Assembly: GCF_023264855.1 (NCBI RefSeq)
Contig: NZ_JAHFUW010000004.1
Coordinates: forward strand, 1-64,000
DNA: 64,000 nt
Origin: Herbiconiux sp.
GTDB taxonomy: Bacteria; Actinomycetota; Actinomycetes; Actinomycetales; Microbacteriaceae
Direction: 5' to 3'
How positions within the stretch are numbered: position 1 is the stretch's first letter; each line of letters opens with the position of its first letter. The notes beneath the pieces are model-generated. The model had not been told where the DNA came from and made no database searches. It saw only the letters and a list, made by a program, of their open reading frames with translations. Below, piece by piece: positions 32,135 to 57,542 of the stretch. A program made the position numbers and the translations under genes.

Positions 32135-32196
32135 TCGTTTGGTCGCAATTTCGTGCGAAAAGCGCGTTCGGTGGACACGAAATTGCGACCGAACGA
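32135..32196. repeat. Palindromic element, 5' copy of unit A
   Basis: Arms 32135-32155 and 32176-32196 match at 20 of 21 positions (core GGTCGCAATTTCGTG) around a 20-base centre. It begins five bases after the desulfurase stop and ends 61 bases before the DUF559 gene start. A near copy of the left arm lies just after that gene at 33213. Confidence 0.9.
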
Positions 32197-32257
32197 TCAT
32201 CGCTCGCCCCGAGGGCTGTGGATAACGGGCCAGGAAGGGAAGGGTGAGAGGCACACT

Positions 32258-33208
32258 GTGCGGGTGCCACGACGTGTTCCTCTGCCTGACGGGTTCGAAC
32301 GAGGGGCGTTCTCTGTGCGCGCGGGGCACGATGCGGGGCTCACCGCGACGCGGATGCGGGGCGGCGACCTGCTGCGGCCGTATCCGGGTGCGCGCATTCC
32401 GGCCAGCGCGCCGCCGATGACTCACCGTGAGCTCTGCGCGGCCTACCTCCTGCGCAGCCCCGAGGGGCAGTTCTTCAGCCACGTGACGGCAGCGCGCCTC
32501 TGGCGTATCCCACTGCCGCTTCGTCTCGAGGCCGAGCGCGCGTTGGATGTGGGGGTGGTGAAGCCGCTGCCGGTGCCGCGACTCCGAGGGATACGGGGGC
32601 ATCGACTCACCGGCACGGGCTTGACGATCGTGCGTCGATACGGGCTCCCTGTAGCGGATGCCGCATCCACCTGGTGTCAGCTCGGTACCGTGCTCGACCA
32701 CGACGACCTGGTGGCAGCGGGTGACCACCTGGTGCGTTGCCCCCGCAAACAGGAACGCGGCGAACGGCGGCCATACGTTCGGCTCGACCACCTGCGATCC
32801 GTCGCGCTGTCCCGCCGAGGCCCGGGCGGACGTGCCCTGCGGGAGGCCGCCGCCGATGTGCGCGAGGGAGCGGACTCGCGCCGGGAGTCGCTGCTGCGTC
32901 TCCTGCTCGTGCGCGCAGGCCTGCCCGAACCCGAGCTCAACCAGGAGATCTTCGACGATCGCGGCCACTCGCTCGGCTTCGCCGACATGCTGTACCGCAC
33001 CCAGCGCGTCGTCGTCGAGTACGACGGCGACCAGCATCGAACCGACTACGACCAGTTCGAGAAGGACGCGGTCCGCCTCGACGACTTCCGCCATCGCGCC
33101 CACCACCACGTGGTCCAAGTGCGCAAGAAGGGCCTGTCCGAGCATCCGCAGGACACCGTGGCCCGCGTGCGCGAGGCTCTCGCCCGAGCCGACCCTTCGA
33201 GCTCGTGA
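32258..33208 (+). CDS. Winged-helix (AbiEi-like) plus DUF559/VSR-like nuclease-domain protein, gene A
   Basis: A 316-residue protein. Residues 1-90 look like the AbiEi-type winged-helix region (LTATRMRGGDLLRPYPGAR, GQFFSHVTAARLW). The middle holds the conserved DHDDLVAAGDHLVR. The C-terminal 110 residues match DUF559: ESLLRLLLVRAGLPEPELN, GFADMLY and VVVEYDGDQHRTDYDQ, whose Asp and Glu fit the PD-(D/E)xK/VSR endonuclease fold. GTG 32258 is chosen because upstream codons cross the palindrome. Gene B (56216-57154) is a clear paralogue. No AbiEii toxin gene is adjacent. Nuclease activity is inferred. Confidence 0.8.
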   Translation: MRVPRRVPLPDGFERGAFSVRAGHDAGLTATRMRGGDLLRPYPGARIPASAPPMTHRELCAAYLLRSPEGQFFSHVTAARLWRIPLPLRLEAERALDVGVVKPLPVPRLRGIRGHRLTGTGLTIVRRYGLPVADAASTWCQLGTVLDHDDLVAAGDHLVRCPRKQERGERRPYVRLDHLRSVALSRRGPGGRALREAAADVREGADSRRESLLRLLLVRAGLPEPELNQEIFDDRGHSLGFADMLYRTQRVVVEYDGDQHRTDYDQFEKDAVRLDDFRHRAHHHVVQVRKKGLSEHPQDTVARVREALARADPSSS

Positions 33209-33212
33209 GTGA

Positions 33213-33270
33213 TCGTTTGGTCGCAAATTCGGGCTCAAAACCTCGGCCGAACACACATTTTTGCGACCAA
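33213..33270. repeat. Palindromic element, 3' copy of unit A
   Basis: TTGGTCGCAAA (33217-33227) pairs with TTTGCGACCAA (33260-33270). The left arm 33213-33233 matches the left arm of the upstream copy at 19 of 21 positions. It starts four bases after the stop of gene A. Confidence 0.88.
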
Positions 33271-33399
33271 TGGGGGATCGGCCGCGCGGGGTAGGGCGCG
33301 CGGGGGATGTGGGTGGTGGGAGGGACTCGTAGCGTGGAGGGACAGCGCAGTTCGGGATGCGGGTGCCCCAGGGGCGGCCGGGATCGGGAGGAGCGGGAG

Positions 33400-33704
33400 A
33401 TGCAGGGCGAGGGCGAGAACACGGGAACGGGCTCCGGAACGGGGAGCAGGATGCTGCGAGGCGATCAGAACTCGACGTGGTTCTTCGTGGGGGCCACGTT
33501 CGCGTTCGCGGCAGCGGCGTGGAGCTTCACGGGGCGGCTGCACCTCGTCGGGGGACTGCTCCTGGCGCTGGGGCGGGGTTGATCGCCGTCGGCATCTACG
33601 TCTGGCAGCGTCCGATCGATCGCGAGCGGGCCGGCATCGTTCCGCCGGAAGGCGCGTCTCCTGGCGGAGCCGCGGATGGGCGCGGGGACCCGCCGCGCAT
33701 CTAG
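33400..33704 (+). pseudogene. Small two-helix membrane protein interrupted by a frameshift
   Basis: ATG 33400 has GGAGGAG nearby upstream. The frame reads a charged head, then a membrane segment (STWFFVGATFAFAAAAWSF) and LHLVGGLLLALG, and stops at 33580-33582. In the next frame the sequence goes on as GAGLIAVGIYVWQRPIDRERAG and ends at 33704. One extra G in the GGGG run at 33570-33573 would join both into a roughly 101-residue two-helix protein. It is either a real one-base deletion or a sequencing error. No function is known. Confidence 0.6.
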
Positions 33705-33770
33705 GCTGCAGCGTCGCGCCCGGCTCCGCAGAGCATCGGGCTGAGCGGCCCAACGGGCCCAGCGGCCCGG

Positions 33771-34757
33771 CTACAGGTTCAGCGAGGTCACCACGGCCAG
33801 GTGGTCGGAATCGCCGACGCGCAGCGTCGAGTTCGACGTGAACGCCATGCCGCGCTGCAGCACGTGGTCGGGGCGGGTGACGGGCATCGAAGCGGGCCAG
33901 GTGAAACCGAAACCGCCATCCGTCTGGTTCGCCTCGCTCAGGGTGCCGAAGAGGCCGGCCATGTTGCGGTCGGAACTGCCGGCGTTGAAGTCGCCGATCA
34001 TCAGCAGGCGCGCGTTCTCGTCGCGCGGAACGTAGTCGGCCAGGTTCGCGAGCATCTCGTCGCGGGTGGCGTGGTCGTCGGGGCGAGCGGATGCGGCGTG
34101 CACCACGTAGATGCTGACCAGTCCTGAGGGGGTCGAGAGGTCGGCCGCGATGCCTCGCTGCCAGCCGAGTCCGAGATCCAGAGCCTGGGCGTTCTCGATC
34201 GGGTAGGCGCTCCACACCCCGACCGTTCCGATGCCGTACGAATAGGGATAGCTCTCGCTGAGCACGCCCTCGACCGCGGCGCGCCCCTCGTCGTCCATCT
34301 CCTGCATGGCGATCACCTGCGCACCGGTCGCGGCCAGCGCCCGGGCCGACTCGGCGGCCGTGCCCGATCCGGCCTCCACGTTCTGGCTGGCGACGGTGAG
34401 CGAGTCTCCGGATGCCGCGGGCGCGCTCCACGAGAGCGGCACGATCGCGGGCACGAACATCGCGCCCCACACGACGGCCGGCACGAGCGCCGCGATCACG
34501 GCCCCCTTGCTGCGGGTGATGAGCGCGGCGATCAGCACGACCGGGATGGCCAGGCCGACCCAGGGGAGGGCCGACTCGAACAGCAGCGACAGCCCGAACA
34601 GTTCGGGAACCAGCACGTGCAACCCCAGCGACACCGCGAGAAGCAGCGCGAGCACGCACACCCCCACCGCCGCCCCCGTGCGGGTTCGGGGCCGGCGTCG
34701 CGGGCTGGCGGCCCGGGTCTCGCGCGGCGCCTCGAGCAGTGCTGACATCGCACTCAT
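33771..34757 (-). CDS. Endonuclease/exonuclease/phosphatase (EEP) family membrane protein
   Basis: A 328-residue protein with three N-terminal membrane segments (about residues 25-110), followed by an exported EEP domain. Visible EEP motifs are [24 protein letters not shown] (metal-binding Glu), [26 protein letters not shown] (catalytic Asp/Asn) and the final [13 protein letters not shown]. This arrangement resembles actinobacterial membrane-anchored EEP proteins; the substrate may be a phosphodiester, nucleic acid or lipid. ATG 34757 and ATG 34748 are both possible; neither has a good ribosome site. It is divergent from mnmA, 109 bases away. Confidence 0.85.
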
Positions 34758-34866
34758 TCTGCACCGCGACGCTGGGCATTTCCCCGAATTGCGGTGCGAA
34801 TCGCCCGTAGTTCCGGTGGCGACCGCCCACCGTTCCACTGTCGGACGCCCGCCGTATGCTGGAACC

Positions 34867-38435
<3,569 letters not shown>

Positions 38436-38475
38436 AATTACCGCACACCCCTCGCGAACAGAACACCGGAGCACC

Positions 38476-38775
38476 ATGTCCGAAATCACTCAGGAGCAGG
38501 TCGCGCATCTCGCGAACCTCGCTCGGATCGCCTTGACTCCCGCCGAGATCGAGAGCCTCACGAAGGAGCTCGGCTCGATCGTCGACAATGTCGCGAAGGT
38601 GTCGGAGGTGGCCACGGCCGACGTGCCGGCCACCAGCCACCCCATCCCGCTGCAGAACGTCTACCGCGACGACGTGCCCGGAAATACCCTCACCACCGAG
38701 CAGGCGCTCGCCGGCGCCCCCGACCACGACGGTTCGCGCTTCCGCGTGACCGCGATCCTGGGAGAAGAGCAGTGA
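38476..38775 (+). CDS. gatC: Asp-tRNA(Asn)/Glu-tRNA(Gln) amidotransferase subunit C
   Basis: A 99-residue GatC, the small subunit that wraps around GatA and stabilises the GatCAB complex. It has the family pattern [20 protein letters not shown] near the start and LREDxP-like YRDDVPGN. The ATG lies 41 bases after ligA. Its TGA overlaps the GTG start of gatA (GTGA), so the three gat genes are one operon in the order C-A-B. Confidence 0.97.
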
Positions 38776-40316
38776 CGAACCAGCAGCACGAGATCGTGCG
38801 CCTGTCCGCCGCGGCCCTGGCCGAGAAGCTCACCGCCGGGGAGCTCTCCTCCGTCGAGGCCACGAAGGCCCACCTCGACCGCATCACCGCGGTCGACCCC
38901 GATGTGCACGCCTTCCTGCACACGGCCCCCGAGCTGAGCCTGGCCACTGCGGCCCGCATCGACGAGCGCCGCGCTGCGGGCGAGTCGCTGCATCCGCTGG
39001 CCGGCGTGCCGATCGCGATCAAAGACGTGATCGTCACCAACGACATGCCCACCACGAGCGGATCGAAGATCCTCGAGGGCTGGGTTCCGCCCTACGACGC
39101 GACCGTCATGACGAAGCTCCGCGCCGCCGGCCTGGTGCCGATCGGCAAGACCAACATGGACGAGTTCGCGATGGGCTCCTCCACCGAGCACTCCGCCTAC
39201 GGTCCCACCCACAACCCGTGGGACCTCGAGCGCATCCCGGGCGGCTCGGGGGGCGGATCGGCGGCGGCCGTCGCCGCGTTCGAAGCCCCTCTCGCGCTCG
39301 GCAGCGACACGGGCGGCTCGATCCGCCAGCCCGCGCACGTCACCGGCACCGTCGGCGTGAAGCCCACCTACGGCGGCGTGAGCCGCTACGGCGCGATCGC
39401 GCTGGCCTCCAGCCTCGACCAGATCGGCCCCGTGAGCCGCACCGTGCTCGACTCGGCGCTGCTGCACGACATCATCGGCGGGCACGACCCGCTCGACTCC
39501 ACCTCGCTCACCGACCAGTGGCCGAGCATGGCCGAGGCCGTGCGCCGCGCCGACGTGAAGGGTCTCAAGATCGGCGTCATCCGCGAGCTCGACGGCGAGG
39601 GCTTCCAGCCCGGCGTGCTCGAGCGCTTCCGCGAGGCGCTCGACATCCTGGCCGCTGCGGGCGCGGAGATCACCGAGGTGAACCTGCCGAGCCTGGAGTA
39701 CGCCATCTCGGCCTACTACCTGATCATGCCGGCCGAGGCCTCGTCCAACCTGGCCAAGTTCGACTCCGTGCGCTTCGGCCTGCGGGTCAACCCGCCCGGC
39801 GGCGGCACCGTCGAAGACGTGATGTCGGCCACGCGCGAGGCCGGCTTCGGCGCCGAGGCCAAGCGCCGCATCATCCTCGGCACCTACGCCCTCAGCGCCG
39901 GTTACTACGACGCCTATTACGGCAGCGCGCAGAAGGTGCGCACGCTCGTGCAGCGCGACTTCGCCGCCGCCTTCGCGGGCGTCGACGTGCTGGTCTCGCC
40001 GACCGCGCCCACCACCGCGTTCAAGCTCGGCCAGAACGACGGCGACCCGATGGCGATGTACCTCAACGACATCGCCACCATCCCGGCGAACCTCGCCGGA
40101 ATCCCCGGCATCTCGCTGCCCGTGGGCCTGGCTGCGGAGGACGGGCTGCCGGTCGGCATCCAGTTCCTCGCCCCCGCCCGCGAAGACGCCCGCCTCTACA
40201 CCGTCGGCGGCGCGCTTGAGCGCCTGCTCGAAGAGAAGTGGGGTCACACCCTGATCAGCCAGGCCCCGGATCTCGCCCCCGGCGAGATGACCGCCGCAGA
40301 AGAAGGAGCCGTCTGA
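38772..40316 (+). CDS. gatA: Asp-tRNA(Asn)/Glu-tRNA(Gln) amidotransferase subunit A
   Basis: A 514-residue glutaminase/amidase subunit supplying ammonia to GatB so that mischarged Glu-tRNA(Gln) is converted to Gln-tRNA(Gln). The amidase triad is clear: the Lys of [13 protein letters not shown], and the two serines in [12 protein letters not shown] and [13 protein letters not shown]. The start is GTG 38772 overlapping gatC. Its stop overlaps the ATG of gatB. Presence of the operon implies no glutaminyl-tRNA synthetase, as in most actinobacteria. Confidence 0.98.
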
Positions 40317-41833
40317 TGGCCAAGGCCGCACTGATGGACTACGACAAGGCCCTCGAGCTGTTCGAGCCGGTGCTCGGCTTCGAGGTGCACGTCGAGCTCT
40401 CCACGAAGACCAAGATGTTCTCGAGCGCCCCGAACTACTTCGGCGGCGAGCCCAACACGAACATCACGCCCACCTGCCTCGGCCTCCCCGGCTCGCTGCC
40501 GGTGGTGAACGGCCAGGCCGTGCGCTACTCGATCAGCCTGGGCCTCGCGCTCGGCTGCTCGATCGCCCCCTCGAGCCGCTTCGCGCGCAAGAACTACTTC
40601 TACCCCGACCTGGCGAAGAACTACCAGATCTCGCAGTTCGACGAGCCCATCGCCTTCGGCGGCTCGGTCGACGTCGAGCTGCCCGACGGCCGCATGTTCA
40701 CGGTGCCGATCGAGCGCGCGCACATGGAGGAGGATGCCGGCAAGCTCACCCACGTAGGTGGCGCGACCGGTCGCATCCAGGGTGCCGAGTACTCGCTCGT
40801 CGACTACAACCGCGCCGGCGTTCCGCTGGTCGAGATCGTCACCGACATCATCTACGGCGCCGAGAAGGATGCTCCGGAGCTGGCCAAGGCGTACGTCTCG
40901 ACCATCCGCGACATCGTCGTGTCGCTCGGCATCTCCGAGGCCCGGATGGAGCGCGGCAACCTGCGCTGCGACGCGAACATCTCGCTGCGCCCGCGCACCG
41001 TGCCCGGCGAGCCGCCGGCGCCGCTCGGCACCCGCACCGAGACCAAGAACGTGAATTCGCTGCGTTCGGTGGAGCGGGCCATCCGCTACGAGATCCAGCG
41101 CCAGGCGGCCATCCTGGCCGACGGTGGCACGATCACGCAGGAGACGCGGCACTGGCACGAAGACACCGGCACCACCTCTGCCGGTCGTCCGAAGTCGGAT
41201 GCCGACGACTACCGGTACTTCCCCGAGCCCGACCTGCTGCCGGTCGTGCCCTCGCTCGAGCTGATCGAAGAGCTGCGTGCCGCACTGCCCGAGCCGCCGG
41301 CCGCGCGCCGTCGCCGGCTGAAGGCCGAGTGGGGCTTCACCGACCTCGAGTTCCAAGACGTGCAGAACGCCGGACTGCTGGTCGAGGTCGCCTCGACGGT
41401 ATCGGCGGGAGCGTCGCCGCAGGCCGCCCGCAAGTGGTGGTCGGGCGAGATCTCGCGCATCGCGAACGCCCGCTCGGCCGAGCCCTCCGCCCTGGTGACG
41501 CCGACGGATGTCGCGGCTCTTGTGGCCCTCGTCGACAGCGGTGCGCTGAACGACCGCCTCGCCCGCCAGGTTCTCGAGGGCGTCATCGACGGCGAGGGCA
41601 CCCCGCAGGAGGTCGTCGACGCCCGTGGGCTCGCCGTGGTCTCCGACGACGGGGCGCTGATCGCCGCGATCGACGAAGCCCTCGCCGCCCAGCCCGACGT
41701 GCTCGCGAAGATCAAAGACGGCAAGGTGCAGGCCGCCGGCGCCGTCATCGGTGCGGTCATGAAGGCCATGAAGGGCCAGGCCGACGCCGCGCGCGTGCGC
41801 GAGCTCGTCCTGGAGCGCGCCGCCGCCTCCTGA
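40316..41833 (+). CDS. gatB: Asp-tRNA(Asn)/Glu-tRNA(Gln) amidotransferase subunit B
   Basis: A 505-residue tRNA-binding kinase/transamidase subunit. The catalytic cradle has [18 protein letters not shown], then [14 protein letters not shown]. Further motifs are [28 protein letters not shown] and [14 protein letters not shown]. The C-terminal YqeY-like tail domain begins near residue 400. ATG 40316 is joined to the gatA stop (TGATG). The upstream extension of the frame lies inside gatA and is rejected. Confidence 0.98.
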
Positions 41834-41918
41834 CCCCGAGCCCCAGCGAGGCTCGTCGGCGCCTGAGGGGCCAAGGAGGCGCTCCGGGAGTGTCGGTGGT
41901 GGGCCGTAGCGTGAGGGC

Positions 41919-42455
41919 ATGGAAGTCGTTATCGCCCAGATCCTCGTCACCACCACGAGCGTCACCGCCGGTGCGCTGCTCGCGCTGCTGATCGACCGCG
42001 GCAAGAGCCGCCGCACCGAGAAGGCCGCCGAGATCAACGCGCTGCGGCTGCTCAGCCTCGAGGTGGCCTCACGGCGCGCGCTCGCGCCCGAGCAGCTGGC
42101 GGGGCCGGTGTCGCTCGACCGGGCCGACCCCGATTCCGACCTCAACCGGGTGCGGCGTTCGGTCGTGCTGCTGCGCAAAGACGTGCGCACCGCCCGGCAG
42201 TCGTTGCGGCCGCGCTCGGCCGCCTGGGGCACGCTCAACGCGATGGTCGCGGCCTGCAACGTCTTTCTCGAGGCCGTCGACGAGCATCCGTCGGCCCTGG
42301 TCACAGAGCTCGAGGCGCTCCGGATGCAGCTCGACACCCTGCAGCGCGAACTCTGCCTCAGCCACCCGCGCGATCTGGTGTATCTGCCGGCGGGTTCGGC
42401 CGCCTACGCGGCCAGGCGGTCGTCGCGCCCGGTGAGCGCGAGCAGCCGTGACTGA
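41919..42455 (+). CDS. Hypothetical protein with one N-terminal membrane helix
   Basis: A 178-residue protein I do not recognise. Residues 3-25 (VVIAQILVTTTSVTAGALLAL) form a membrane helix. The remainder is charged and mostly helical, with basic residues right after the helix (DRGKSRRTEKAAE), so the bulk is probably cytoplasmic. ATG 41919 follows GTGAGGG. The last 52 bases overlap the convergent gene at 42404, so the true C-terminus is well defined but tightly packed. No function is proposed. Confidence 0.6.
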   Translation: MEVVIAQILVTTTSVTAGALLALLIDRGKSRRTEKAAEINALRLLSLEVASRRALAPEQLAGPVSLDRADPDSDLNRVRRSVVLLRKDVRTARQSLRPRSAAWGTLNAMVAACNVFLEAVDEHPSALVTELEALRMQLDTLQRELCLSHPRDLVYLPAGSAAYAARRSSRPVSASSRD

Positions 42456-43021: not shown

Positions 43022-43154
43022 CGTTGCTCCTATCGGCCTTGCGGTCTCTGGTGTCAATGCGGCGACAGCGGGCCGCATTCCGAGGAACGCCTCCATGATG
43101 CACCCGATTCGCGCTCAGCGAACAGAGCCGGATGCCGCACGCTAGCGTTGACGG

Positions 43155-43655: not shown

Positions 43656-43666
43656 CGATCGGCCCC

Positions 43667-43720
43667 GCGGCACCGCCACCAGCGGCACCGCCACCAGTGG
43701 CACCGCCACCCGCGGCACCG
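43667..43720. repeat. 15-bp tandem repeat, three units plus a partial
   Basis: Units at 43667, 43682 and 43697 (GCGGCACCGCCACCA and two near copies) are followed by a partial unit from 43712. They fill the 72-base convergent gap between the GNAT and MprF-like genes. Confidence 0.85.
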
Positions 43721-43727
43721 CAGAGCG

Positions 43728-46322: not shown

Positions 46323-47623
46323 CGGTTGAGGCCCCAATGATCCGCGATCAGGTCCAGTCCCTTCTCGAACACGTAGGACCAGGTGGTGGCGTCGTGCGCG
46401 CTGCCCTGCGCCTCGATGTAGGTGGCCGTCATGCCCGCCGCCTGTGCGTCGGCGTAGAGCGTCTTGATGCCGGGGAGGTAGGCGGTGTCTTCGCTGCCGA
46501 CACCGAACACCGCGAACATGTCGCTGTACGGCGCGTTCGCCGCCATGATCGAGGCGGGCTTGGCGGCCTCGTACTTCGCCGCATCGCCGCCGAAGCCCTG
46601 GGCGGTGGCGTTCTGCTCGTCGTGGATGCGCGGATACTCCTCGCCCGAGGCATCCAGGATCGCCGCGAACAGCTCAGGATGCGCCGCCCCCAGCTGGATC
46701 GAACAGGTGCCGCCCTGCGAGAGACCGCCGATGCCCCAGTAGTGCGGGCCGTCGAGCACCGGGAGGTTCGCCTTCATCCAGGCCGGCACGTCGACGGTGA
46801 GGTAGGTGGCCGAGTTGCCGAGCGGCGAGTCGACGCACATCGGATTGACATCGGGCGCACCCAGCTGGTCGGGCGAGACCACGATCGGGGCGAGGCCCTG
46901 GTGCGCGGCGGCGTAGGTGTCGAGGCTGGCCTGCAGCTTGGCGGTCTTCAGCGGATCGTCGGGGCTGCCGGGCTGGCCGGAGAGCATGATCAGCACCGGC
47001 AGCTTCGGCGGGTTCGCGGTGAGGGCGGCCGGCGGCAGGTAGACCACGGCGGGCCGGGCGTCGAATCCGGAGGTCGTGCCCGGGATCGTCACGCTGCTCA
47101 CGCTGCCGGTGGTGGGCATGCCGGCCGGGGCGGTCCAGGTGGCGATCGAGGCCGTCGCGGTGTTGAGCTTCGGCAGCTCGGCGGAGTAGGCACTGATCCC
47201 CAGCGCGCTGCGGATGGTGGTGTACTGCCCGAAGTCGATGTTGATGCTCATCGCCGCGGTCGCCACGAACAGCACCACGGCCAGCACGGAGGCGATCATC
47301 CGGCGCCAGGTTCCCCGCCAGAAAGAGGCGAGGGCCATCGCGCTGGCGCCGAATCCGACGACGATCCAGATGCGGGCCACCACCGTGAGCTCGGCTCCGA
47401 AGAGGTTGAGCTGGTCGGAGAGCAGCCAGGTGAGGAAGAGGCCGAGGGCGCCGCCCAGCACCGCGACGACGACGGCGACGCCGAACCAGGGCAGACGGCG
47501 CCAGCGCGGGCCGGGCACGACGAACAGCAGCAGGAGCGCGGTGACGGCGGCGGCCGCGTAGACGGCGACCACGAAGGGACCGGAGAGGATTCCGATGTCG
47601 AGGATGACATTCACGGGATTCAC
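46319..47623 (-). CDS. Membrane-anchored esterase (Esterase D/mycolyltransferase-like fold)
   Basis: A 434-residue protein with four N-terminal membrane helices (residues 10-130) and an outside alpha/beta-hydrolase domain of the putative-esterase family. The nucleophile elbow is GGLSQGGTCS, earlier is VLIMLSGQPGSPDD, and the histidine of QGSAHDATTW is the likely catalytic base. It forms an operon with the MprF-like gene, so it may hydrolyse or remodel the aminoacylated lipid made there; this is inference from context. The start is GTG 47623; an in-frame GTG at 47614 is possible. Confidence 0.82.
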   Translation of the reverse strand: MNPVNVILDIGILSGPFVVAVYAAAAVTALLLLFVVPGPRWRRLPWFGVAVVVAVLGGALGLFLTWLLSDQLNLFGAELTVVARIWIVVGFGASAMALASFWRGTWRRMIASVLAVVLFVATAAMSINIDFGQYTTIRSALGISAYSAELPKLNTATASIATWTAPAGMPTTGSVSSVTIPGTTSGFDARPAVVYLPPAALTANPPKLPVLIMLSGQPGSPDDPLKTAKLQASLDTYAAAHQGLAPIVVSPDQLGAPDVNPMCVDSPLGNSATYLTVDVPAWMKANLPVLDGPHYWGIGGLSQGGTCSIQLGAAHPELFAAILDASGEEYPRIHDEQNATAQGFGGDAAKYEAAKPASIMAANAPYSDMFAVFGVGSEDTAYLPGIKTLYADAQAAGMTATYIEAQGSAHDATTWSYVFEKGLDLIADHWGLNR

Positions 47624-47841
47624 GGGCGAGGGATCCTGTCGATTCGGTCGTGCACCGGGCGGCGGCCTGGCGTCGATCAGTATTTTCCCCTGGTCTGGGT
47701 GAAGTCTGGGAGGTTGGGGCGCTCGGGGCGGGGTGTGTCGGATGCGGGGACGCGCGCTCGTGGGGCGGCCTACCCGCCGCGCAGCCGGCGGTGTGGTCGC
47801 GGCGCGGTCACGGTGTCGGTGGTGGGACGTAGGCTCGAGGC

Positions 47842-49110
47842 ATGTCCACCGAGCCGCGCGCCCACGCGAGCGGGAGCAGCGGGCCGGCCGAGCCGAGTCC
47901 GCCCATCCTGCACGTCGACATGGACGCGTTCTTCGCGTCGGTCGAACTGCTCTCCCACCCCGAACTCGCGGGCAAGCCGGTGATCGTCGGTGGCCGCTCC
48001 GGGCGAGCCGTCGTCACCAGCGCGACCTACGAGGCACGGGCTTTCGGCGTGCACTCCGCCATGCCGGTCGGGGCGGCCCTGCGGCTGTGCCCGAAGGCCG
48101 TGGTGCTCGAGCCGCACATGCAGCTCTACCGCGACTACTCGCGGCAGGTGATGGCGATCTTCCGCTCCGTCACGCCGCACGTCGAACCCCTCAGCATCGA
48201 TGAGGCGTTCCTGGACGTCGCCGGCGCGCGCCGCCTGCTCGGGGAGTCCGACGAGATCGCCCGGCGCCTGCGCGCCCAGGTGTTCGCCGAGACGGGGCTG
48301 CCGTGCTCGGTGGGGGTGGCGCCCACCAAGTTCATGGCCAAGCTCGCCTCCGGGCGGGCCAAGCCCGACGGGATGCTCGTCATCCGGCCGTCGGAGGTGC
48401 TCGCGTATCTGCATCCGCTGCCCGTGCGCGCGCTCTGGGGTGTGGGCGGGAGCACCGCCGAGCGGCTCGAGCGGCTGGGGCTGCGCACCGTCGGCGACAT
48501 CGCCGAGACCCCGCTGGATGCGCTCATCCGGACGGTCGGTGCGGCCTCCGGCGAGAAACTGCACGAACTGGCGCTCGGCATCGACACCCGGCAGGTGCTG
48601 CCGCCCTCGCAGGAGAAGAGCGTGGGGCACGAGCGCACCTTCGACGTCGACGAGCGCTCGCCGGAGGTGCTGCGCCGCGAGCTGCTCGACCAGTCCAACC
48701 GGGTCGCCGTGCGCCTGCGCGCGGCCGGGCTGGTGGGCAAGACCGTGGCCCTGAAACTGCGCTTCGCCGACTTCACGACGATCTCGCGCTCACGCACACT
48801 GTCCGAGCCCACCGACCTCGGGCGTCGCATCTACGACGAGATCTCGGCGGTCTTTGACGCGGTCGGCACCCGCGGCGACGCGATCCGCCTGATCGGCGTG
48901 CGCGTCGAGCAGCTCTCCGAGGCCGGAGGAACAGTGCATCAGCCTTCCCTCTGGGCCGACGAGACCGTCCCGTCGGAGGGCTGGCACGACGCAGAGCGCA
49001 CCATCGACCGCGTGACGGCCCGTTTCGGCACCGACATCGTGCGTCCGGCGTCTTTGGTGAATGCGCCGCGCTCAGGCGAAACCGCCGAGCGGAACGGTAC
49101 CCGGCGCTAG
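47842..49110 (+). CDS. dinB: DNA polymerase IV (Y family)
   Basis: A 422-residue translesion polymerase. The palm motifs are ILHVDMDAFFASVELL (first metal-binding Asp) and EPLSIDEAFLDVAGARRLLG (second acidic pair). LPCSVGVAPTKFMAKLAS and the helix-hairpin-helix GVGGSTAERLERLGLRTVGD follow, then a C-terminal little-finger domain. No LexA-type box is obvious upstream in the GC-rich 218-base gap. A long perfect palindrome (49123-49210) lies directly after the stop. Confidence 0.94.
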   Translation: MSTEPRAHASGSSGPAEPSPPILHVDMDAFFASVELLSHPELAGKPVIVGGRSGRAVVTSATYEARAFGVHSAMPVGAALRLCPKAVVLEPHMQLYRDYSRQVMAIFRSVTPHVEPLSIDEAFLDVAGARRLLGESDEIARRLRAQVFAETGLPCSVGVAPTKFMAKLASGRAKPDGMLVIRPSEVLAYLHPLPVRALWGVGGSTAERLERLGLRTVGDIAETPLDALIRTVGAASGEKLHELALGIDTRQVLPPSQEKSVGHERTFDVDERSPEVLRRELLDQSNRVAVRLRAAGLVGKTVALKLRFADFTTISRSRTLSEPTDLGRRIYDEISAVFDAVGTRGDAIRLIGVRVEQLSEAGGTVHQPSLWADETVPSEGWHDAERTIDRVTARFGTDIVRPASLVNAPRSGETAERNGTRR

Positions 49111-49122
49111 CAACAGCGTGAC

Positions 49123-49210
49123 GGTTCGGTTCGAAAAAGCTGCAATTCAGCCATAGTGAGGCCGTATACGGGGTCGCTCTGCGTTATTTGCAGCTTTTTC
49201 GAACCGAACC
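49123..49210. repeat. Perfect 23-bp inverted repeat around a 42-base centre
   Basis: Arms 49123-49145 and 49188-49210 are exact reverse complements (core TTCGAAAAAGCTGCAA). The element fills the convergent gap between dinB and treZ. It has no U-tract, its loop is too long for a normal terminator, and no target duplication is visible. Confidence 0.9.
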
Positions 49211-49228
49211 CCTCGGGAATGGACGGAG

Positions 49229-51034
49229 TCAGTCTGCGGGGCGAGTCACCAGCACCGAACGGGGTGCGGCCTCCGTGGGCGTCGCGCCGGCAGCCGGCGC
49301 GGGCTCGCCGCGGAGCGCCGCTCGCGACTCGAAGAGCACCTCGCCGAGGCGCGGGGCGATGCGCGCGAGGGGGCGCGGCTCGTCGGAGAGGTTCACCACC
49401 AGCACGAGGCCGGGGCGCTCCAGCGTGAGCCAGCGCTCGTCGTCGTCGAAGTCGACGCGCACGTCGGCGAGGCGCACCGAGTCGCCCGCGGGCAGGGTGG
49501 CCCGGATCGCGGCCAGGCTGCGGTACACCTCGAGCATGGCGGCGTGCTCCGGATGCGCGGCATCCGTGAGCTCCGACCAGTCCAGCTTCGAGTTCTCGAA
49601 CGTCGACGGCTCCTGCGGATCGGGCACCACATCCGGGTCCCAGCCCATCTTGGCGAATTCGCTGATGCGGCCCTTCGCGGTGGCCTCGCCGAGCTCCGGC
49701 TCCGGATGCGAGGTGAAGAACTGCCACGGGGTCGGCGCGGCCCACTCCTCGCCCATGAACAGCATCGGGGTGAACGGCCCGAGCAGGGTGAGGGCGGCCG
49801 CGATGGCCAGTGCTTCGGCATCGAGCGTGGCCGTGAGGCGGTCGCCCACGGCCCGGTTGCCGATCTGATCGTGGTTCTGCGAGGCCACCACGAGCCGCCA
49901 GGGAGCGGTCGCCGCCCGGTCGAGCTCGACGCCGTGCGTCTTCTCGCGGAAGCTCGAGTACGTGCCGTCGTGGAAGAACCCGCGCGTGAGCACCTTCGCC
50001 AGCGCCCCCACCGAGTCGAAGTCGGCGTAGTAGCCCGTGGTCTCCCCGGTGAGGTTGACGTGCACGGCGTGGTGGAAGTCGTCGCTCCACTGCCCGTCGA
50101 GCCCGTGACCGCCCTCGGCCCGTGCCGTGAACATCACCGGGTCGTTCAGATCCGATTCGGCGATCAGCTGGCGCCGGATGCCGCTGCGCTCCGAGAGCTC
50201 CTCCACCTCGGCGGCCAGCTCGGCCAGCAGGTGGGTGGGGGAGCCGTCGACCAGCGCGTGCACCGCATCCAGGCGCAGTCCGTCGACGTGGTACTCCTCG
50301 AGCCACATCAGGGCGTTGTCGAGGATGAACCGGCGCACCTCCTCGGAGCCCTCGTGGTCGAGGTTCACCGAGACGCCCCAGGTGTTGCTGTTCTTGTCGT
50401 TCAGGTACGGGCCGAACAGCGGCAGGTAGTTGCCGCTCGGGCCGAGGTGGTTGTAGACCACGTCCTGGATGACCGCGAGACCGGCCGCGTGGCAGGCGTC
50501 GACGAAGCGGCGGTAGGCATCCGGGCCCCCGTAGCCCTCGTGCACGGTGAACCACGCGACGCCGTCGTAGCCCCAGTTGTGGGTGCCGTTGAAGCCGTTC
50601 ACCGGCAGCAGCTCGACGTGGGTGACGCCGATCGAGCGCAGGTGGTCGAGGCGGCCGGCTGCGGCCTCCAGCGTGCCCTCGGGCGTGAACGTACCGAGGT
50701 GCAGCTCGTAGATCTCGGCGCGGTCCAGGGGCAGGCCGGCCCAGTCGCCGTCCTGCCAGGCGTACGAGGCGGGGTCGTCGGTCTGCGAGAGGCCGTGCAC
50801 GCCGTCGGGCTGGCGGCGCGAGCGCGGGTCGGGGTAGGGGCCGTCGCCGTCGAGCAGGAAACCGTAGTGCAGGCCCGGCGCCCAGGGCACGTCGGGGCCG
50901 GAGACCCACCAGCCGCCGTCGGTCGCGGTCAGCGGATGCGCGCGGTAGCCGGCGGGCTCGGCGCCGTCGGCGAGAACCAGCTCGACGGTGGCGGCGCGGG
51001 GTGCCCAGACGCGGAAGGCGGTCGGGTTCGTCAT
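49229..51034 (-). CDS. treZ: Malto-oligosyltrehalose trehalohydrolase
   Basis: A 601-residue GH13_10 enzyme cleaving trehalose from the end of the malto-oligosyltrehalose made by TreY. It has an N-terminal beta domain ([18 protein letters not shown]) and the barrel motifs [26 protein letters not shown] (nucleophile Asp), [10 protein letters not shown] (acid) and [14 protein letters not shown]. Length is typical. Its ATG overlaps the treY stop (ATGA), placing it last in the operon glgX-treY-treZ. Confidence 0.96.
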
Positions 51035-53412
51035 TCGTCGATCCTCTGCAGTAGGGCAACGGGGTAGCGTTCGAGCAGCAGGGCGAGCCGGATGCCGCCG
51101 TCGCCGTGCTCGGCACCGTAGAGACGCCCGGTGAGCGTGTCGACGTAGCCGTTGCGGGCGCTAGGGAGCTCGAGTGTGGTGTCGTCCCACCCGCCCCGGC
51201 GCTCGAGGCCGAGAGGCAGGCGGGTGGCGACGGTGATCGCCCCGCCCCGGTCGAAGGCCAGCACGTGGCCGGCGGCGCTGCCGCGCGCCTCGAGCGGCAC
51301 GTAGTCGGTGAACAGCTCGGGCCGGTCGCGGCGCAGCCGCAGGGCAGCCGACACCACGAGCAGCTTGGCCGCCCCGAGATCGTCGGGCTCGCCCGCCGAC
51401 CCGGCGAACTCCGGTGATTCGCCGGCGTCCTGCTGCTCGAGCAGGTCGGCGCGCACGCTGTAGTCGACCGGGCGCCGGTTGTCGGGGTCGACCAGCGAGT
51501 GGTCCCAGAGCTCGGTGCCCTGGTAGACATCCGGAACCCCGGTGGTGGTGAGCTGCACGAGCTTCTGCGACAGCGAGGTGCTGCGGCCGGCCCGCCGAAC
51601 CGCCTCCGCACGAGCCTGCAGGGCGGCTCCGGCGATCGGATCGACGTACACCGAGTCGACCGCGGCCTGCATCTGCGCCTCGAAGGTCTCGTTCACGGCG
51701 AGCCATCCCGTGGACGTGCCCGCCTCGCGCGACGCCTTCGTCGCGTAGTCCTGCGCGCGGGAACGGTCCAGCGGCCAGGTGCCGAGCAGCGCCTGCCAGA
51801 GCAGGTTCTCGAACGGGCCGTCGCCGAGCGGATGCGTCCGGCGCAGCTCGGCGAGGGTGGCGGCCCAGGCATCCGGATCCTCCGCCAGCGCGGTGATGCG
51901 CGCCCGGGTGTCTTCCGAGCGCTTGGTGTCGTGCGTGGAGAGCGTGGTCATGGCGCCGGGCAGCGTGTCGAGCCGGCGCCGCTGCAGGGCGTGGAACCGC
52001 TCGACGTCGACCGCGAACTCGTCGGGCTCGGCTCCCACCTCGTTCAGGCTCGTGAGGCGCGACCAGCGGTAGAACGCGGTGTCTTCGACGCCCTTGGCCA
52101 TCACCATGCCGGAGGTCTGCTGGAAGCGGGCGCCGGCAGCCCCGCCGGTGCGGGCGAGCACGGCGGCGACCTCCTCGAGAACCGGTCGCAGTTCCGGGCG
52201 GTGTTCGAGGGAGCGGGCGAGCGCCGTGTCGAGGTGCTCCTGCCCGGCGGGCAGGTACGAGCGGTACACCGGGAAGCAGGCCAGCAGTTCGGCGAGGGCA
52301 TCCCACACCGTCTCGGAGGCGGTCGGCGTCGGCGGACCGCCGTCGCGCTCGATGTCCCGGGCCAGCCGGCGAACCTCCGACTGCAGGATGCCGTCGGCCA
52401 CCGCCCGTTTGGTGTCGTGGATGAGCTCGGGGTAGCTGCCCGGCTCGGGGACGACGGGGGAGTCCTGCCGCAGCTCGGCCGCGAGCGCGTCGAGCGCGGC
52501 CTCGCCCGCAGCATCCACGAACACCCGGTCGATGCCGGCCAGAGCGTCGTAGCCCGTGGTTCCGGCCGTCGCCCAGTCGGTCTCCAGCGGCTCGTCGCCC
52601 TCGAGGATCTTCTCGACCAGCACGTAGGCGCCCCCGGTCAGCTCGGCGAGCCGGTCGAGGTACCCCTTAGGGTCGGCGAGTCCGTCGGGGTGGTCGACCC
52701 GAAGCCCGTCGACCAGTCCCTCGCGGAACCAGCGACCGATCTCGGCGTGCGACTCGTCGAACACCCGCGGCTCCTCCACCCGGATCGCCGCGAGGGTCGA
52801 CACCGCGAAGAAGCGGCGGTAGTTCAGCTCGCTGCCCTCGCGGCGCCAGTTCACCAGCTCGTAGTGCTGGCGGTCGTGCACCTCCTGAGCGGAGGCTCCG
52901 TCGTCGGCCGTGCCGGGAGCGATCGGATACGCGTTGTCGTAGTACCGCAGCACGGGCTCGGCCCCGCTGCGGTCGATCTCGAGAGCCTCCACCGAGTCGT
53001 CGCCGAGCACGGGAATGCGGATGCGGCCGCCGCCCGCGTCCCAGTCCACGTCGAAGGCTCCGGCCATGCGCGATTCCCGGCCGCCCGCAAGCAGCTCCCA
53101 CCACCACGGGTTCTGCGACGGGGTCGCCACGCCCACGTGGTTGGGCACGATGTCGACGAGCACGCCGAGCCCGGCCTCGTGCGCCGCCTCCGAGAGGGCG
53201 CGCAGCCCGTCGGGCCCGCCGCGCGACTCGTCCACCCGCGAGTGGTCGGTGACGTCGTAGCCGTGCTGCGACCCCTCCTCGGCCTGCAGGATCGGCGACA
53301 GGTACACCCAGTCCGCCCCGAGGCGGGCGAGGTAGGGAACCAGACGCGCCGCATCCCACAGGGTGAAGTCGGCGGTCAGCTGGAGGCGGTAGGTGGAGCG
53401 GGGAACGCGCAT
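51031..53412 (-). CDS. treY: Malto-oligosyltrehalose synthase
   Basis: A 793-residue GH13_26 enzyme that turns the reducing end of alpha-glucan chains into an alpha,alpha-1,1 trehalosyl end. Motifs are [54 protein letters not shown] and [18 protein letters not shown]. The start is ATG 53412. It lies between glgX copy 2 (14 bases upstream) and treZ (overlapping), a complete TreXYZ-type set that yields trehalose from glycogen. Confidence 0.96.
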
Positions 53413-53425
53413 CCGGAATCTCTTT

Positions 53426-55627
53426 CTAGCCGGCTGAGGGGATGGACGGCGTGATCTGACCAGCCGCGTCGGCCGCCGCGGTGAGCGAAGCCGCCACCGA
53501 GTGGTCGGGTTCGACCTCGAGCTCGCGGTGGACGCGCAGCACCACCATCGAGCGTGCCCCGACTGTGAGCTGCCCGCCAGCCTCGAACACCTGGGAATCC
53601 GCTGCTTCTCCCGCGGTGTCGATCACCACGTCCCAGCTCGGCGCGTACTCGGCCGAGGGGAGGGTGAACTCCTGGTCTTCGTCGTGGGCGTTGAAGTAGA
53701 GCAGGAAGTTCACGTCGCTGAGCGGATTGCCCCGCGGATCGCGCGCCCGGATGCCCTGGCCGTTGAGGAACACGCCGACCGATCGCGACAGCGACGAGTC
53801 CCATTCCTCGGGCTGCATCTCGGTGGCGTCTTCGTTCAGCCAAGCGATGTCGGGCAGCGGCTCGCCCTTGCCGCGCTTGACGGGGCGGCCGTCGAAGAAG
53901 CGGCTGCGCCGGAACGTCGGATGCTCCTTCCGCAGCCGGGTGACCGCGGCCGTGAACTCGATCAGCGGCTGGTCTTCGCTGTCCCAGTGCACCCAGGTGA
54001 GCGGCGAGTCCTGGGCGTAGGTGTTGTTGTTGCCGTTCTGCGTGCGGCCGAGCTCGTCGCCGTGCAGCAGCATGGGCACGCCCTGCGAGAGCAGCATGGT
54101 GGCGATGAAGTTGCGCTGCTGGCGGGCGCGCAGGGTGAGCACCTTCGGGTCGTCGGTGGGGCCCTCGACACCGCAGTTCCACGAGCGGTTGTGCGATTCG
54201 CCGTCGTTGTTGTCTTCACCGTTGGCGTCGTTGTGCTTCTCGTTGTAGCTCACCAGGTCGCGCAGGGTGAATCCGTCGTGCGCGGTGACGAAGTTGATGC
54301 TGGCCACCGGGCGGCGGCCGGAGTGCTCGTAGAGGTCGGCGCTGCCGGTGAAGCGGCTCGCGAACTCGCCGAGGGTGGAGGGCTCGCCGCGCCAGAAGTC
54401 GCGCACGGTGTCGCGGTACTTGCCGTTCCACTCCGTCCACTGCGGCGGGAAGTTGCCCACCTGGTAGCCGCCGGGGCCCACGTCCCACGGCTCGGCGATG
54501 AGCTTCACCTGCGACACCACGGGGTCTTGCTGCACGAGCTCGAAGAAGGTCGACAGCCGGTCGACGTCGTAGAACTCGCGCGCCAGGGCGCTGGCCAGGT
54601 CGAAGCGGAAGCCGTCGACGTGCATCTCGGTCACCCAGTAGCGCAGCGAATCCATGATGAGCTGCAGGGAGTGCGGATGCCGCACGTTGAGGGTGTTGCC
54701 GGTGCCCGTGTAGTCCATGTAGTACCGCTGATCGTCTTCCATCAGGCGGTAGTAGGCGGCGTTGTCGATGCCGCGGAAGCTCAGGGTGGGGCCGAGGTGG
54801 TTGCCCTCGGCGGTGTGGTTGTACACCACGTCGAGGATGACCTCGATGCCGGCCGCGTGCAGCGACTTCACCATGCCCTTGAACTCCTGCACCTGCTGAC
54901 CGCGGTCGCCGGTGGAGGAGTAGGTGTTCTGCGGGGCGAAGAAGCCGATGGTGTTGTAGCCCCAGTAGTTGCTGAGGCCCTTGTCGAGCAGCGTGCTGTC
55001 GTTCACGAACTGGTGCACGGGCATCAGCTCGATGGCGGTGATGCCGAGCTTCAGCAGGTGCTCGATGACGGCCGGATGCGCGACGCCCGCATACGTGCCG
55101 CGCTGCTCCTTCGGCACCTCGGGATGCAGCGCGGTGAGGCCCTTGACGTGCGCCTCGTAGATCACGCTCTGGCTGTAAGGGATGCGCAGCTTGCGGTCGC
55201 CCGCCCAGTCGAAGAACGGGTTGATCACCACGCCGTAGGTCATGTGCTTGGCGGAGTCCTGGTCGTTCTGGGAGTCCGGGTCGCCGAAGTTGTACGAGAA
55301 CAGCGACTGGTCCCAGTCGATGGCGCCGCTGGTCGCCTTGGCGTAGGGGTCGAGCAATAGCTTGTTGGGGTTCGCCCGATTGCCGTTCGACGGGTCGTAG
55401 TCGCCGTGCACGCGGTAGCCGTAGCGCTGGCCCGGCTGCACCTGCGGGAGGTACGCGTGCCAGACGAAGGCGTCCACCTCGGTCAGTTCCACCCGGGTCT
55501 CGGCGCCCTTGTCGCCGAACAAGCAGAGCTCCACCCGGTGTGCCGCCTCACTGAAGAGGGCGAAGTTGGTTCCGCTCCCGTCGTAGGTGGCGCCGAGCGG
55601 GTAGGCCGATCCTGGCCATGACTGCAT
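53426..55627 (-). CDS. glgX: Glycogen debranching enzyme GlgX/TreX, copy 2
   Basis: A 733-residue GH13_11 debranching enzyme. The N-terminal domain begins [20 protein letters not shown]. Barrel motifs are [14 protein letters not shown] (nucleophile), [14 protein letters not shown] (acid) and [17 protein letters not shown] 55627 is chosen because AGGAG lies seven bases upstream; longer openings lack a ribosome site. As the first gene of glgX-treY-treZ it is the TreX that feeds linear chains to TreY. It is longer than copy 1 by 45 residues and clearly diverged from it. Confidence 0.95.
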
Positions 55628-55727
55628 GTGATCTCCTGTCGATTCGGAGTTCACGCTACCGGGTTCCGACTGGGCGACCACCGGCGCACCCCTACCCCGG
55701 CGGTGGTGATCGCGGTAGCGTATGCCC

Positions 55728-56105
55728 ATGGCGAACCTCGTGGACACCCTGACCGACGCGACGAAATCCATCGGAGTCGGAGCGGCTTACGGCGCTCCGG
55801 TCGAGATCGACGGTGTCAGCATCGTTCCTGTCGCACTGGTGTGGGCCGGCTTCGGCGGCGGCAACGGCACCACCAACGGCAACGCCAACGTGCCCACCGA
55901 TGTCTCGCGCCCCCTGATGGGCGGCGAAGCCGGTGGCGAGGGCTTCGGCGGCGGCGGTCTCAGCGTGCCGATCGGCGCGTACGTCAAGACCGGCAGCACG
56001 GCCACCTTCCAGCCGAACCTCATCTCGCTGCTCGCGGTCTCCATCCCGGTCATCGTCACCGCCGGCTGGTCGCTCTCGCGCATCATCCGAGCGCTCAAGA
56101 AGTAG
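55728..56105 (+). CDS. GerW/YtfJ family protein
   Basis: A 125-residue small protein of the GerW (sporulation YtfJ) family, with VDTLTDATKSIGVGAAYGAPVE-like start, GVSIVPVALVWAGFGGG, a Gly-rich middle, and a C-terminal membrane helix (ISLLAVSIPVIVTAGWSLS) ending in a basic tail. In Bacillus, GerW affects spore germination; actinobacterial homologues are widespread in non-sporulating species, with unknown role. ATG 55728 and ATG 55722 are both in frame. It is divergent from glgX copy 2 and convergent with gene B. Confidence 0.85.
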   Translation: MANLVDTLTDATKSIGVGAAYGAPVEIDGVSIVPVALVWAGFGGGNGTTNGNANVPTDVSRPLMGGEAGGEGFGGGGLSVPIGAYVKTGSTATFQPNLISLLAVSIPVIVTAGWSLSRIIRALKK

Positions 56106-56165
56106 CCTGCCCGGGCCGACGGCGCCCCGCCCGGTCTGTCCCGCCCTAGTCACCCTCCAGCCCTC

Positions 56166-56224
56166 GCGACTTGCCACAACTTGTGGCAAGTGGGCGTGTT
56201 TCCGGGCGACTTCTGTCAAGTCGC
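56166..56224. repeat. Palindromic element, 3' copy of unit B
   Basis: ACTTGCCACAA (56169-56179) and TTGTGGCAAGT (56181-56191) form a perfect palindrome around one base. GCGACTTG (56166-56173) also pairs with CAAGTCGC (56217-56224). The element overlaps the stop codon of gene B (56216-56218). Positions 56167-56224 match 57285-57342 at 46 of 58 bases. Confidence 0.9.
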
Positions 56225-57154
56225 GGGTCGCTCGGGCCAGCCGAGCATGTGCATTCGGTCGCGGATGCGAGTGAGGGCGGGGAGGCCCGTGCCGGTGAGG
56301 GAGAGCTTGCCGAACCGCAGCACGTGCTCGCCTTCATCGCGGAGCGAGTCCAGCCGGATGACGTCCCGCGCGTACTGCTTGTCGTTCGTGCGGTGCTGCT
56401 CGCCGTCGTATTCGACGACCAGACGCAGACCGGGGTAGTACAGGTCCACCCACGCGATCCGCGCGCCTGCCGAATCGTGGATCGGTACATCCGTCAGGGG
56501 CTCGGGCAGCCCGTCGTCCACCATGAGCAGCCGCAGTCGGGTCTCTTGCGGCGAATCGACACCGGTGCGGACGCGGTCGAGTGCGAGTGTCGCGTTCCGC
56601 CGCCCTCGACCGCCGTAGCGAGCCGTCCGCCCGGCCAGTTCCTCGATGGTGGCGAAGGGTCTGGGGTCGCCTGGAACGGGAAAGTGCGGCGTGCGCACGA
56701 GGTAATCGCCCGCGGCCACGAGGTCGTAGTGATCGAGAGTCGTTGCGAGATGCAGCCAGGTGGAGACGGGATCCGCCACCGCGAGACCATGGCGCGACCG
56801 GATGCCCACGCGCTGGTCCTCGAACTGATGCCCGATGACTCCGTGCACCCGTGGTGCCCGCGACGGTGCGTGCGCCGCCACGTGAAGGGACTCAGCAGGA
56901 TGCCAGGGCGGAAGCGGGACACCCCAGATGCGCGCGGCGGTCGTATGACTGAAGAACTGGCCCGGGCGTTGCAGCGCCGCGTAGGCCCGGCACCGCGACT
57001 CGAGACCGACCGGAACCCGGGCTTCCACCCTCACGCCGCGGTGCGGCCGACGAAGATCCCTCTCGCGCATCCGGCGTTCGCTGAGACCGGCACGTCGGCC
57101 CTCCTCCAGGGTGAACGGTTCGCCCTGAAGAGAGGCTGGTATCTGGGTTCGCAC
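56216..57154 (-). CDS. Winged-helix (AbiEi-like) plus DUF559/VSR-like nuclease-domain protein, gene B
   Basis: A 312-residue paralogue of gene A. The N-terminal region has GLSERRMRERDLRRPHRGVR and GQFFSHTTAARIWGVPLP (gene A: GQFFSHVTAARLWRIPLP). The middle has LDHYDLVAAGDYLVR. The C-terminal DUF559 domain has ETRLRLLMVDDGLPEPLTD, WVDLYYPG and LVVEYDGEQHRTNDKQ, with the acidic residues expected of a VSR/PD-(D/E)xK nuclease. The start is GTG 57154; no strong ribosome site is seen. The stop lies inside the 3' palindrome. No partner toxin or antitoxin gene is adjacent. DNA cleavage is inferred only. Confidence 0.8.
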   Translation of the reverse strand: MRTQIPASLQGEPFTLEEGRRAGLSERRMRERDLRRPHRGVRVEARVPVGLESRCRAYAALQRPGQFFSHTTAARIWGVPLPPWHPAESLHVAAHAPSRAPRVHGVIGHQFEDQRVGIRSRHGLAVADPVSTWLHLATTLDHYDLVAAGDYLVRTPHFPVPGDPRPFATIEELAGRTARYGGRGRRNATLALDRVRTGVDSPQETRLRLLMVDDGLPEPLTDVPIHDSAGARIAWVDLYYPGLRLVVEYDGEQHRTNDKQYARDVIRLDSLRDEGEHVLRFGKLSLTGTGLPALTRIRDRMHMLGWPERPAT

Positions 57155-57256
57155 GCAGCAAGCATGACCTCATCCGCCCGCCGACGACCGTTCTCCACAG
57201 CAACTCCTCTCCTGAACGTTCTATCCCCAACCGCGCACGGAGCGAGAGTGTCGACG

Positions 57257-57342
57257 ACTTGGCAGAAGTCGCCGCAATCACGCCCGACTTGCCACAAGTT
57301 GTGGCAAGCCGCTCCGCTTTAGGGCGACTTCTGCCAAGTGGC
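57257..57342. repeat. Palindromic element, 5' copy of unit B
   Basis: Outer arms ACTTGGCAGAAGTCGCC (57257-57273) and its exact complement (57323-57339) enclose CTTGCCACAA-G-TTGTGGCAAG (57288-57308). Bases 57285-57342 are a direct copy (46 of 58) of the element at the gene B stop. It ends about 100 bases upstream of the gene B start. Confidence 0.9.
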
Positions 57343-57420
57343 GGGGACGCGAGGGGACCGGGAGGGGAGAGCGAGTGGGGCGGGGATGGGATTGAGGAGG
57401 GACGGGAGCTAGAGCAGAGC

Positions 57421-57452: not shown

Positions 57453-57542
57453 ACACGGGAGTCCGGTGAGCCGGGCTGAGAGGAAGGTTCTCAACCTTCG
57501 ACCGTCGAACCTGATCTGGATCATGCCAGCGCAGGGAGGCAT
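57453..57542 (+). ncRNA. TPP riboswitch (THI element)
   Basis: The conserved THI-box parts are present in order: the GGGAG-type 5' strand, CCGGGCTGAGAGG, then CCGTCGAACCTGATCTGGAT and ATGCCAGCGCAGGGAGG. The helix with AAGGTT/AACCTT is the variable P3 arm. It senses thiamine pyrophosphate and precedes ykoE by about 100 bases, so thiamine sufficiency should shut off the ECF transporter. Confidence 0.95.

Follow-up and report, generated by a model that had tools for sequence, protein, structure and literature searches.

Paralogous DUF559-type nuclease genes in Herbiconiux and their dispersed cognate palindromes: a likely REP/RAYT-like system with an unrelated nuclease

Two genes in a 64,000-nt stretch of Herbiconiux sp. 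DNA (NZ_JAHFUW010000004.1, positions 1 to 64,000; hereafter the window) raise the question of whether a nuclease unrelated to the HUH transposases can be paired with its own family of repetitive extragenic palindromic (REP) sequences. Repeats of the REP type are common in bacteria; to our knowledge, the HUH-type REP-associated tyrosine transposases (RAYTs) are the only dedicated enzymes known for them. The original prediction for this DNA described two units, A and B, each a nuclease-like gene with one palindrome upstream and a second at the stop codon, and guessed at a REP-like logic in which each protein recognises its own palindrome. We consider it likely that A and B form a system of the REP/RAYT kind whose enzyme is an unrelated nuclease of the Vsr/EDxHD fold, each protein having a cognate palindrome of ∼60 bp.

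The coordinates bear out the two units, of ∼1.14 kb (A) and ∼1.18 kb (B), with a palindrome upstream and another at or near the stop. Gene A encodes 316 aa, including a C-terminal DUF559/Vsr-type nuclease domain whose Pfam score is under the cut-off, and runs on the plus strand from a GTG start at 32258 to a stop ending at 33208. The A-type palindrome upstream (32135–32196) has 21-nt arms, 95% complementary, around a 20-nt loop, with 61 nt separating its end from the gene start, and an A-type inverted repeat (33217–33270) begins 8 nt past the stop. Gene B lies on the minus strand (56216–57154), with its GTG at 57154 and its stop at 56216, and encodes 312 aa. Upstream of it is a B-type element (57252–57344) of two overlapping units, 57252–57312 on the minus and 57283–57344 on the plus strand, and the palindromic block at 57255–57341 stands 100 nt before the gene start. 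A further B-type element (56165–56226, plus strand), recovered by palindrome search, model match and folding, overlaps the stop codon; its palindromic block spans 56165–56225. Roughly 23 kb of unrelated DNA separates A from B, and 32135–57342 is not a single unit. The proteins are paralogues (41% identity) with a separate palindrome type bracketing each gene, as had been claimed.

The palindromes around A are built on TTTGGTCGCAA and the blocks around B on ACTTGNCANAAGT. When folded as DNA, the four palindromic stretches gave z-scores of -5.94, -4.82, -4.55 and -5.76 against dinucleotide shuffles, and in each case none of 200 shuffles folded as well. Within the window, TTGGTCGCAAW occurs three times, and CTTGCCACAA and CGACTTGNCAGAAGT (one mismatch allowed) four times each, in every case at genes A or B; shuffled windows average 0.02 occurrences for each of these three patterns.

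The same sequences are scattered through the rest of the genome. The B half-site ACTTGNCANAAGT has 27 genome matches, compared with two for its reversed control, and TTGGTCGCAA has eight, again compared with two. At the sites that were read, B units were intergenic and spread over many contigs, and A units were found on contigs C6, C17, C59 and C82; two further pattern matches, C64:55215 and C30:1093, were rejected as elements by eye. A loose pattern with a spacer of 6–22 nt yielded 16 B copies, three of them inside the window and none at L038, one of 12 dispersed loci. The layout was uniform in all 16 extracted copies, an 18-nt spacer separating a 21-nt palindrome from a 13-nt half-site. Searched with a sequence model built from these copies, the genome gives 32 matches, some of which overlap. 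By their behaviour the B elements are REP-like, being palindromic, repeated and extragenic, and having a dedicated gene flanked by its own palindrome. Two loci, L033 (contig C5) and L040 (contig C60), hold same-orientation pairs of B elements 95 and 84 nt apart, recalling bacterial interspersed mosaic element (BIME) arrays.

Seven DUF559-type genes were found in the genome: A, B, a third paralogue C (G000:C21; 45–47% identical) and four of a sister subfamily (L013–L016). Each has a different palindrome, on both sides in five genes and on one side in two. A search with all seven palindromes gave 398 matches over 16 genomes, and among the about 150 matches listed, types B, C, E, F and G have copies distant from their gene (for C, one that matches over 61 nt at 98% identity), while type D was listed only at its own gene. 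Copies of A are known from the pattern search; thus six of the seven types are found elsewhere. The sister subfamily has palindromes of its own, three of its four types being dispersed. This multiplicity bears on the possibility that the palindromes are miniature inverted-repeat transposable elements (MITEs) mobilised by some unrelated transposase, DDE or other, with a nuclease gene between them by chance. The ∼20-nt terminal inverted repeats of types A and C would suit a MITE, and the junctions are too diverged for a target-site duplication to be read. Against this stands the different palindrome at each of the seven DUF559-type genes found. No DDE family appears among the Pfam matches of A and B, no search having been aimed at a transposase with the same ends.

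Pairing of palindrome with gene also holds between genomes. For 12 genomes of 10 genera, a joined query of 12 palindromes was searched in those genomes and in two Herbiconiux controls (E ≤ 0.001). It gave 236 matches, and the best 150 of the 236 all fell in the palindrome's own genome, a result that makes the MITE explanation very unlikely; the two control genomes had no match. Among the matches listed, 10 of the 12 palindromes also occurred over 400 nt away from the homologue used, at between 1 and 28 places.

A similar picture emerged among congeners for type B. Homologues of B at 58–60% identity occur in three of 15 congeners (G253, G256 and G258), the others reaching 50% at best. The B model scored up to 150 candidates per genome, so that its congener counts are lower bounds: at least 79 matches in G253, at least 147 in G256 and at least 139 in G258. 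Of the 12 congeners without a close B gene, 11 have no B match and one, G251, has seven. This association of gene and match is significant by Fisher's test (p 0.002), for genomes that are related and lineages that are not independent. In G155, C-type copies dominate among the matches listed, and the C homologue occupies the same site as in the present genome. These genome comparisons establish cognate pairing and dispersal of the palindromes; the REP-like logic guessed earlier was correct in that dispersed palindromes accompany the genome that holds the gene.

The association extends across the family. Homologues (E ≤ 1e-20) were found in 170 of 249 genomes of Microbacteriaceae, and a scan of contigs confirmed 100 relatives, of which 80 loci were kept. 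Most of these belong to Herbiconiux, Cryobacterium, Microbacterium, Naasia and Agromyces, together with other genera, all of which we take to be Microbacteriaceae. The flank test covered 77 loci for which both sides could be used (three from this genome and 74 fetched), 6 of 83 having been dropped for a flank under 120 nt. A palindrome was present upstream in 60, downstream in 42, on both sides in 33 and on either side in 69 of the 77, compared with 75 of 884 control windows. Moreover, the upstream and downstream flanks resembled each other at 61 of 77 loci; among control pairs this was so in 27 of 226. Further DUF559 loci from the genus behaved alike, with a flanking palindrome in 23 of 27 and similar flanks in 12 of 27; these comprise 23 of 28 loci, five of the A/B/C subfamily being left out, plus L013–L016, and one locus (L217) is misframed.

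Palindrome type was found to follow protein similarity, with a threshold. In a comparison that left out 6 of 112 loci, a palindrome was shared by 62 of 4,176 pairs below 45% protein identity, by 49 of 74 pairs at 55–60% and by all 29 pairs above 80%, although the high-identity counts are inflated by orthologous and duplicate loci. Most of the similar pairs come from orthologous loci, and some loci entered from both collections (L052/L136 and L053/L132, for example, have the same palindromes). The overall Spearman correlation between protein and flank similarity is a weak 0.19, since the majority of pairs have no palindrome in common; the signal lies in the threshold near 55% identity. When only non-syntenic pairs are counted, 9 of 19 at 55% identity or more share a palindrome, or about five independent cases, and none of 107 at 50–55% do; the synteny cut-off behind these counts is lenient (99th percentile, 151), since the background itself holds syntenic pairs, and L085–L087, counted as non-syntenic, scores 148. 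The original prediction had expected palindromes around most homologues and a flank type that tracks protein similarity, and both expectations held, the second on counts that orthologues inflate.

The position of the dispersed copies speaks to two further explanations. Thirty-six dispersed sites of types A, B, C, F and G were placed relative to genes with a simple GC-frame gene caller: 18 lie between convergent genes, 12 between tandem genes and one between divergent genes, four overlap the end of an open reading frame (ORF) and one is inside a predicted ORF, making 31 of 36 strictly intergenic. Convergent pairs make up 9 of 43 gene pairs in the window. The proteins could be AbiEi-like transcription factors whose nuclease fold is vestigial; the palindromes would then be operators, for autoregulation at the protein's own gene and for a regulon elsewhere. 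An AbiEi_4 winged helix is found in part of the sister subfamily (above the cut-off in L013 and L016, weaker in L015 and absent from L014), and one palindrome does stand upstream of each gene. Operators, however, would not be expected mostly at 3′ ends and convergent junctions, with a single divergent site in 36, nor in numbers well above 100, as the matches reach in some related genomes, and the candidate catalytic residues described below are invariant in 73 proteins, which together make this explanation improbable. The proteins also differ from AbiEi antitoxins in their fused nuclease domain, and no AbiEii-like partner was found by Pfam in 12 neighbouring ORFs, on which ground a type IV (AbiE) toxin-antitoxin system was rejected.

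The preference for convergent 3′ ends would equally suit palindromes that are mainly bidirectional terminators or structural elements under selection, policed or repaired in Vsr-like fashion by the nuclease and not spread by it. The Vsr-type fold and the purifying selection on the protein are in keeping with such a role. Against it, the presence and number of the elements vary strongly between congeners, at conserved gene junctions too. The flanks of 11 elements were searched in eight congeners and 33 orthologous stretches were fetched at six spots, the first 20 chosen mainly for shorter gaps and 13 added later; gaps of ∼900 nt or more and junctions split between contigs were excluded. At the four B spots, a B element was present in two of nine stretches from genomes with a B gene and in none of 14 from the rest, and at the two A spots an A half-site (≤1 mismatch) was present in none of 10. 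The flanking genes are thus conserved and the element usually is not, a pattern in which gain and loss are indistinguishable. Top-scoring B elements show identities among themselves of 0.78 in this genome, 0.87 in G258 and 0.84 in G253; between this genome and G258 or G253 the value is 0.69–0.71, and between G253 and G258 it is 0.85. We regard the terminator explanation as a most improbable one.

The protein itself resembles a nuclease. The original prediction gave both proteins a winged-helix region followed by a VSR/DUF559 domain; the DUF559 part stood for B (21.1 bits, just above the cut-off of 20.6), A scored under that cut-off (16.6 bits), and the N-terminal winged helix stood only weakly, with an AbiEi match to B at E 0.075, none to A, and Pfam AbiEi_4 in 2 of 73 homologues. 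Among the same 73 homologues, DUF559 (PF04480) was found in 59 and REase_MTES_1575 (PF18741) in 58 at E ≤ 0.01, both A and B scoring below the cut-off of the latter. An AlphaFold2 model of B from 73 sequences is confident (predicted local distance difference test score, pLDDT, 95.5; predicted template-modelling score, pTM, 0.91). In a Foldseek comparison of this model with the PDB, the catalytic domain of the EDxHD homing endonuclease I-Bth0305I (3r3p) ranked second, with probability 1.00, TM-scores by target of 0.65 and 0.76, and E 0.018 and 0.069, which makes it the nuclease whose structure best matches the catalytic domain of B. A profile search of PDB sequences returned only the endonuclease-like protein 3hrl (E 0.0005). 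Six residues, E204, R208, D237, G251, H254 and D264, are invariant in 73 of 73 sequences and are candidate catalytic residues. The median ratio of non-synonymous to synonymous substitution rates (dN/dS) is 0.14 over 28 close, partly overlapping pairs, which marks a nuclease-like protein under purifying selection. Phage protein families gave no match to A, B or C, and no NCBIfam family matched A or B.

Likeness to I-Bth0305I invites the view that A and B are selfish homing-type nucleases, which would cut alleles lacking the gene and its palindromes and spread by repair, the dispersed palindromes being cleavage sites or by-products. A target of nearly 60 bp, on which the enzyme dimerises, has been reported (PMC3943268); the closeness of this length to the element size is suggestive only. 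Unlike the EDxHD homing endonucleases, A and B are paired with dispersed palindromes, and no intron was found nearby: an Rfam search of 31800–58000 returned only a thiamine pyrophosphate (TPP) riboswitch and so no known intron around the two genes, and a known RNA was rejected on the same result. The compared close B and C homologues also hold one fixed site, and homing at a single allele does not alone account for many dispersed copies. Taken together, we judge a homing origin unlikely. At the site common to the B homologues (56216–57154 here; L171–L173 and L051), these are ∼60% identical and neighbouring coding matches ∼72–93%; evolution of the B protein is apparently fast at a conserved site.

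The REP/RAYT-like reading draws on a different set of parallels. REP/RAYT (TnpA-REP) systems, REPINs, REPtrons and TIRtrons combine a palindrome-flanked gene, in cognate pairing, with dispersed, non-autonomous intergenic elements near 3′ ends, between convergent or tandem genes (PMC3116915; PMC8266576; PMC3733652), and both features recur here. The present proteins are nonetheless not RAYTs, because there is no HUH (H-hydrophobic-H) motif in A, B or C and neither GTAG nor CTAC in any of the 16 B copies. Membership of RAYT/TnpA-REP was further rejected on the EDxHD/REase-type structure match and on the lack of any transposase family in Pfam searches of A and B (E ≤ 1) and of the 73 homologues (E ≤ 0.01). 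The systems differ, too, in the EDxHD/Vsr type of the nuclease domain, in elements of ∼60 bp and in seven palindrome types with seven genes in one genome. On the best reading, the system works like a RAYT, with which it shares the logic alone.

A and B would then be two members of a large chromosomal family of nuclease-like genes, with one ∼60-bp palindrome per gene. Each protein would recognise its own palindrome, copies of which bracket the gene and scatter through the genome, mostly beside gene 3′ ends. The protein probably nicks or cuts the element, perhaps in an extruded hairpin or cruciform form, after which replication or repair by the host could copy it to new sites, as proposed for RAYTs. 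The chemistry would be that of a hydrolytic nuclease of the Vsr/EDxHD fold in place of an HUH transposase, and the upstream palindrome may let the protein regulate its own gene. The bracketing, the cognate specificity, the dispersal and the presence or absence of elements between congeners can be read directly from the genomes compared, as can the invariance of the candidate catalytic residues and the purifying selection.

Several points weigh against this reading. Foldseek gave no match of the B model to the PDB at E ≤ 0.001, its first rank was a mitoribosomal chain (E 0.004, rmsd 15.8), and the likeness to I-Bth0305I is at the level of the fold. The intergenic DNA is too diverged for insertion junctions or target-site duplications to be readable. 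At two orthologous spots both genomes carry a B element (G256 at C39, G258 at C43), and these may be old shared insertions. The compared B and C homologues share this genome's chromosomal site; with the homologues fixed in place, the gene shows no movement, and its co-occurrence with the palindrome is partly shared ancestry. The seven B-type matches of G251 occur without a close B gene, possibly as relics after gene loss or as elements of a diverged cognate gene, and among the matches listed the palindromes of G238 and G037 occur only at the gene. Lastly, binding, cleavage, mobilisation and autoregulation by A and B are inferred.

No described system of this form was found, in agreement with the original prediction: a literature search, outside which lay bioRxiv and most subscription journals, brought up no paper that connects nucleases of the DUF559, Vsr or EDxHD type with dispersed palindromes. 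For MTES_1575, a Vsr-type REase domain in fusion with HEPN and winged helix-turn-helix domains has been described (PMC3710099), in passages where neither palindromes nor repeats come up. Enzyme, expected chemistry and element all differ from those of known REP systems, mobilisation being presumed. We lean towards the view that a new class of dedicated REP nucleases exists among DUF559/Vsr-fold proteins: chromosomal enzymes inherited vertically, several per genome, each of which spreads a private palindrome family by hydrolytic nicking and co-evolves with it. Such nucleases, if confirmed, would be convergent with RAYTs; were there a second enzyme class, unrelated to the first, whose one-gene-one-palindrome code is family-wide and genome-specific, the REP lifestyle would have evolved independently. 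They could also point to enzymes for REP families without a known transposase, suggest what many DUF559 genes of unknown function are likely to do, and supply numerous natural pairs of nuclease and target from which specificity could be decoded.

Pfam matches in the 12 neighbouring ORFs of A and B include a class-V aminotransferase, tRNA methyl transferase-family and alpha-amylase-family proteins and an ABC-type permease. An endonuclease/exonuclease/phosphatase-family protein is encoded downstream of gene A (33774–34868, minus strand), and the TPP riboswitch (57454–57554) adjoins unit B, upstream of the ABC-type permease gene.

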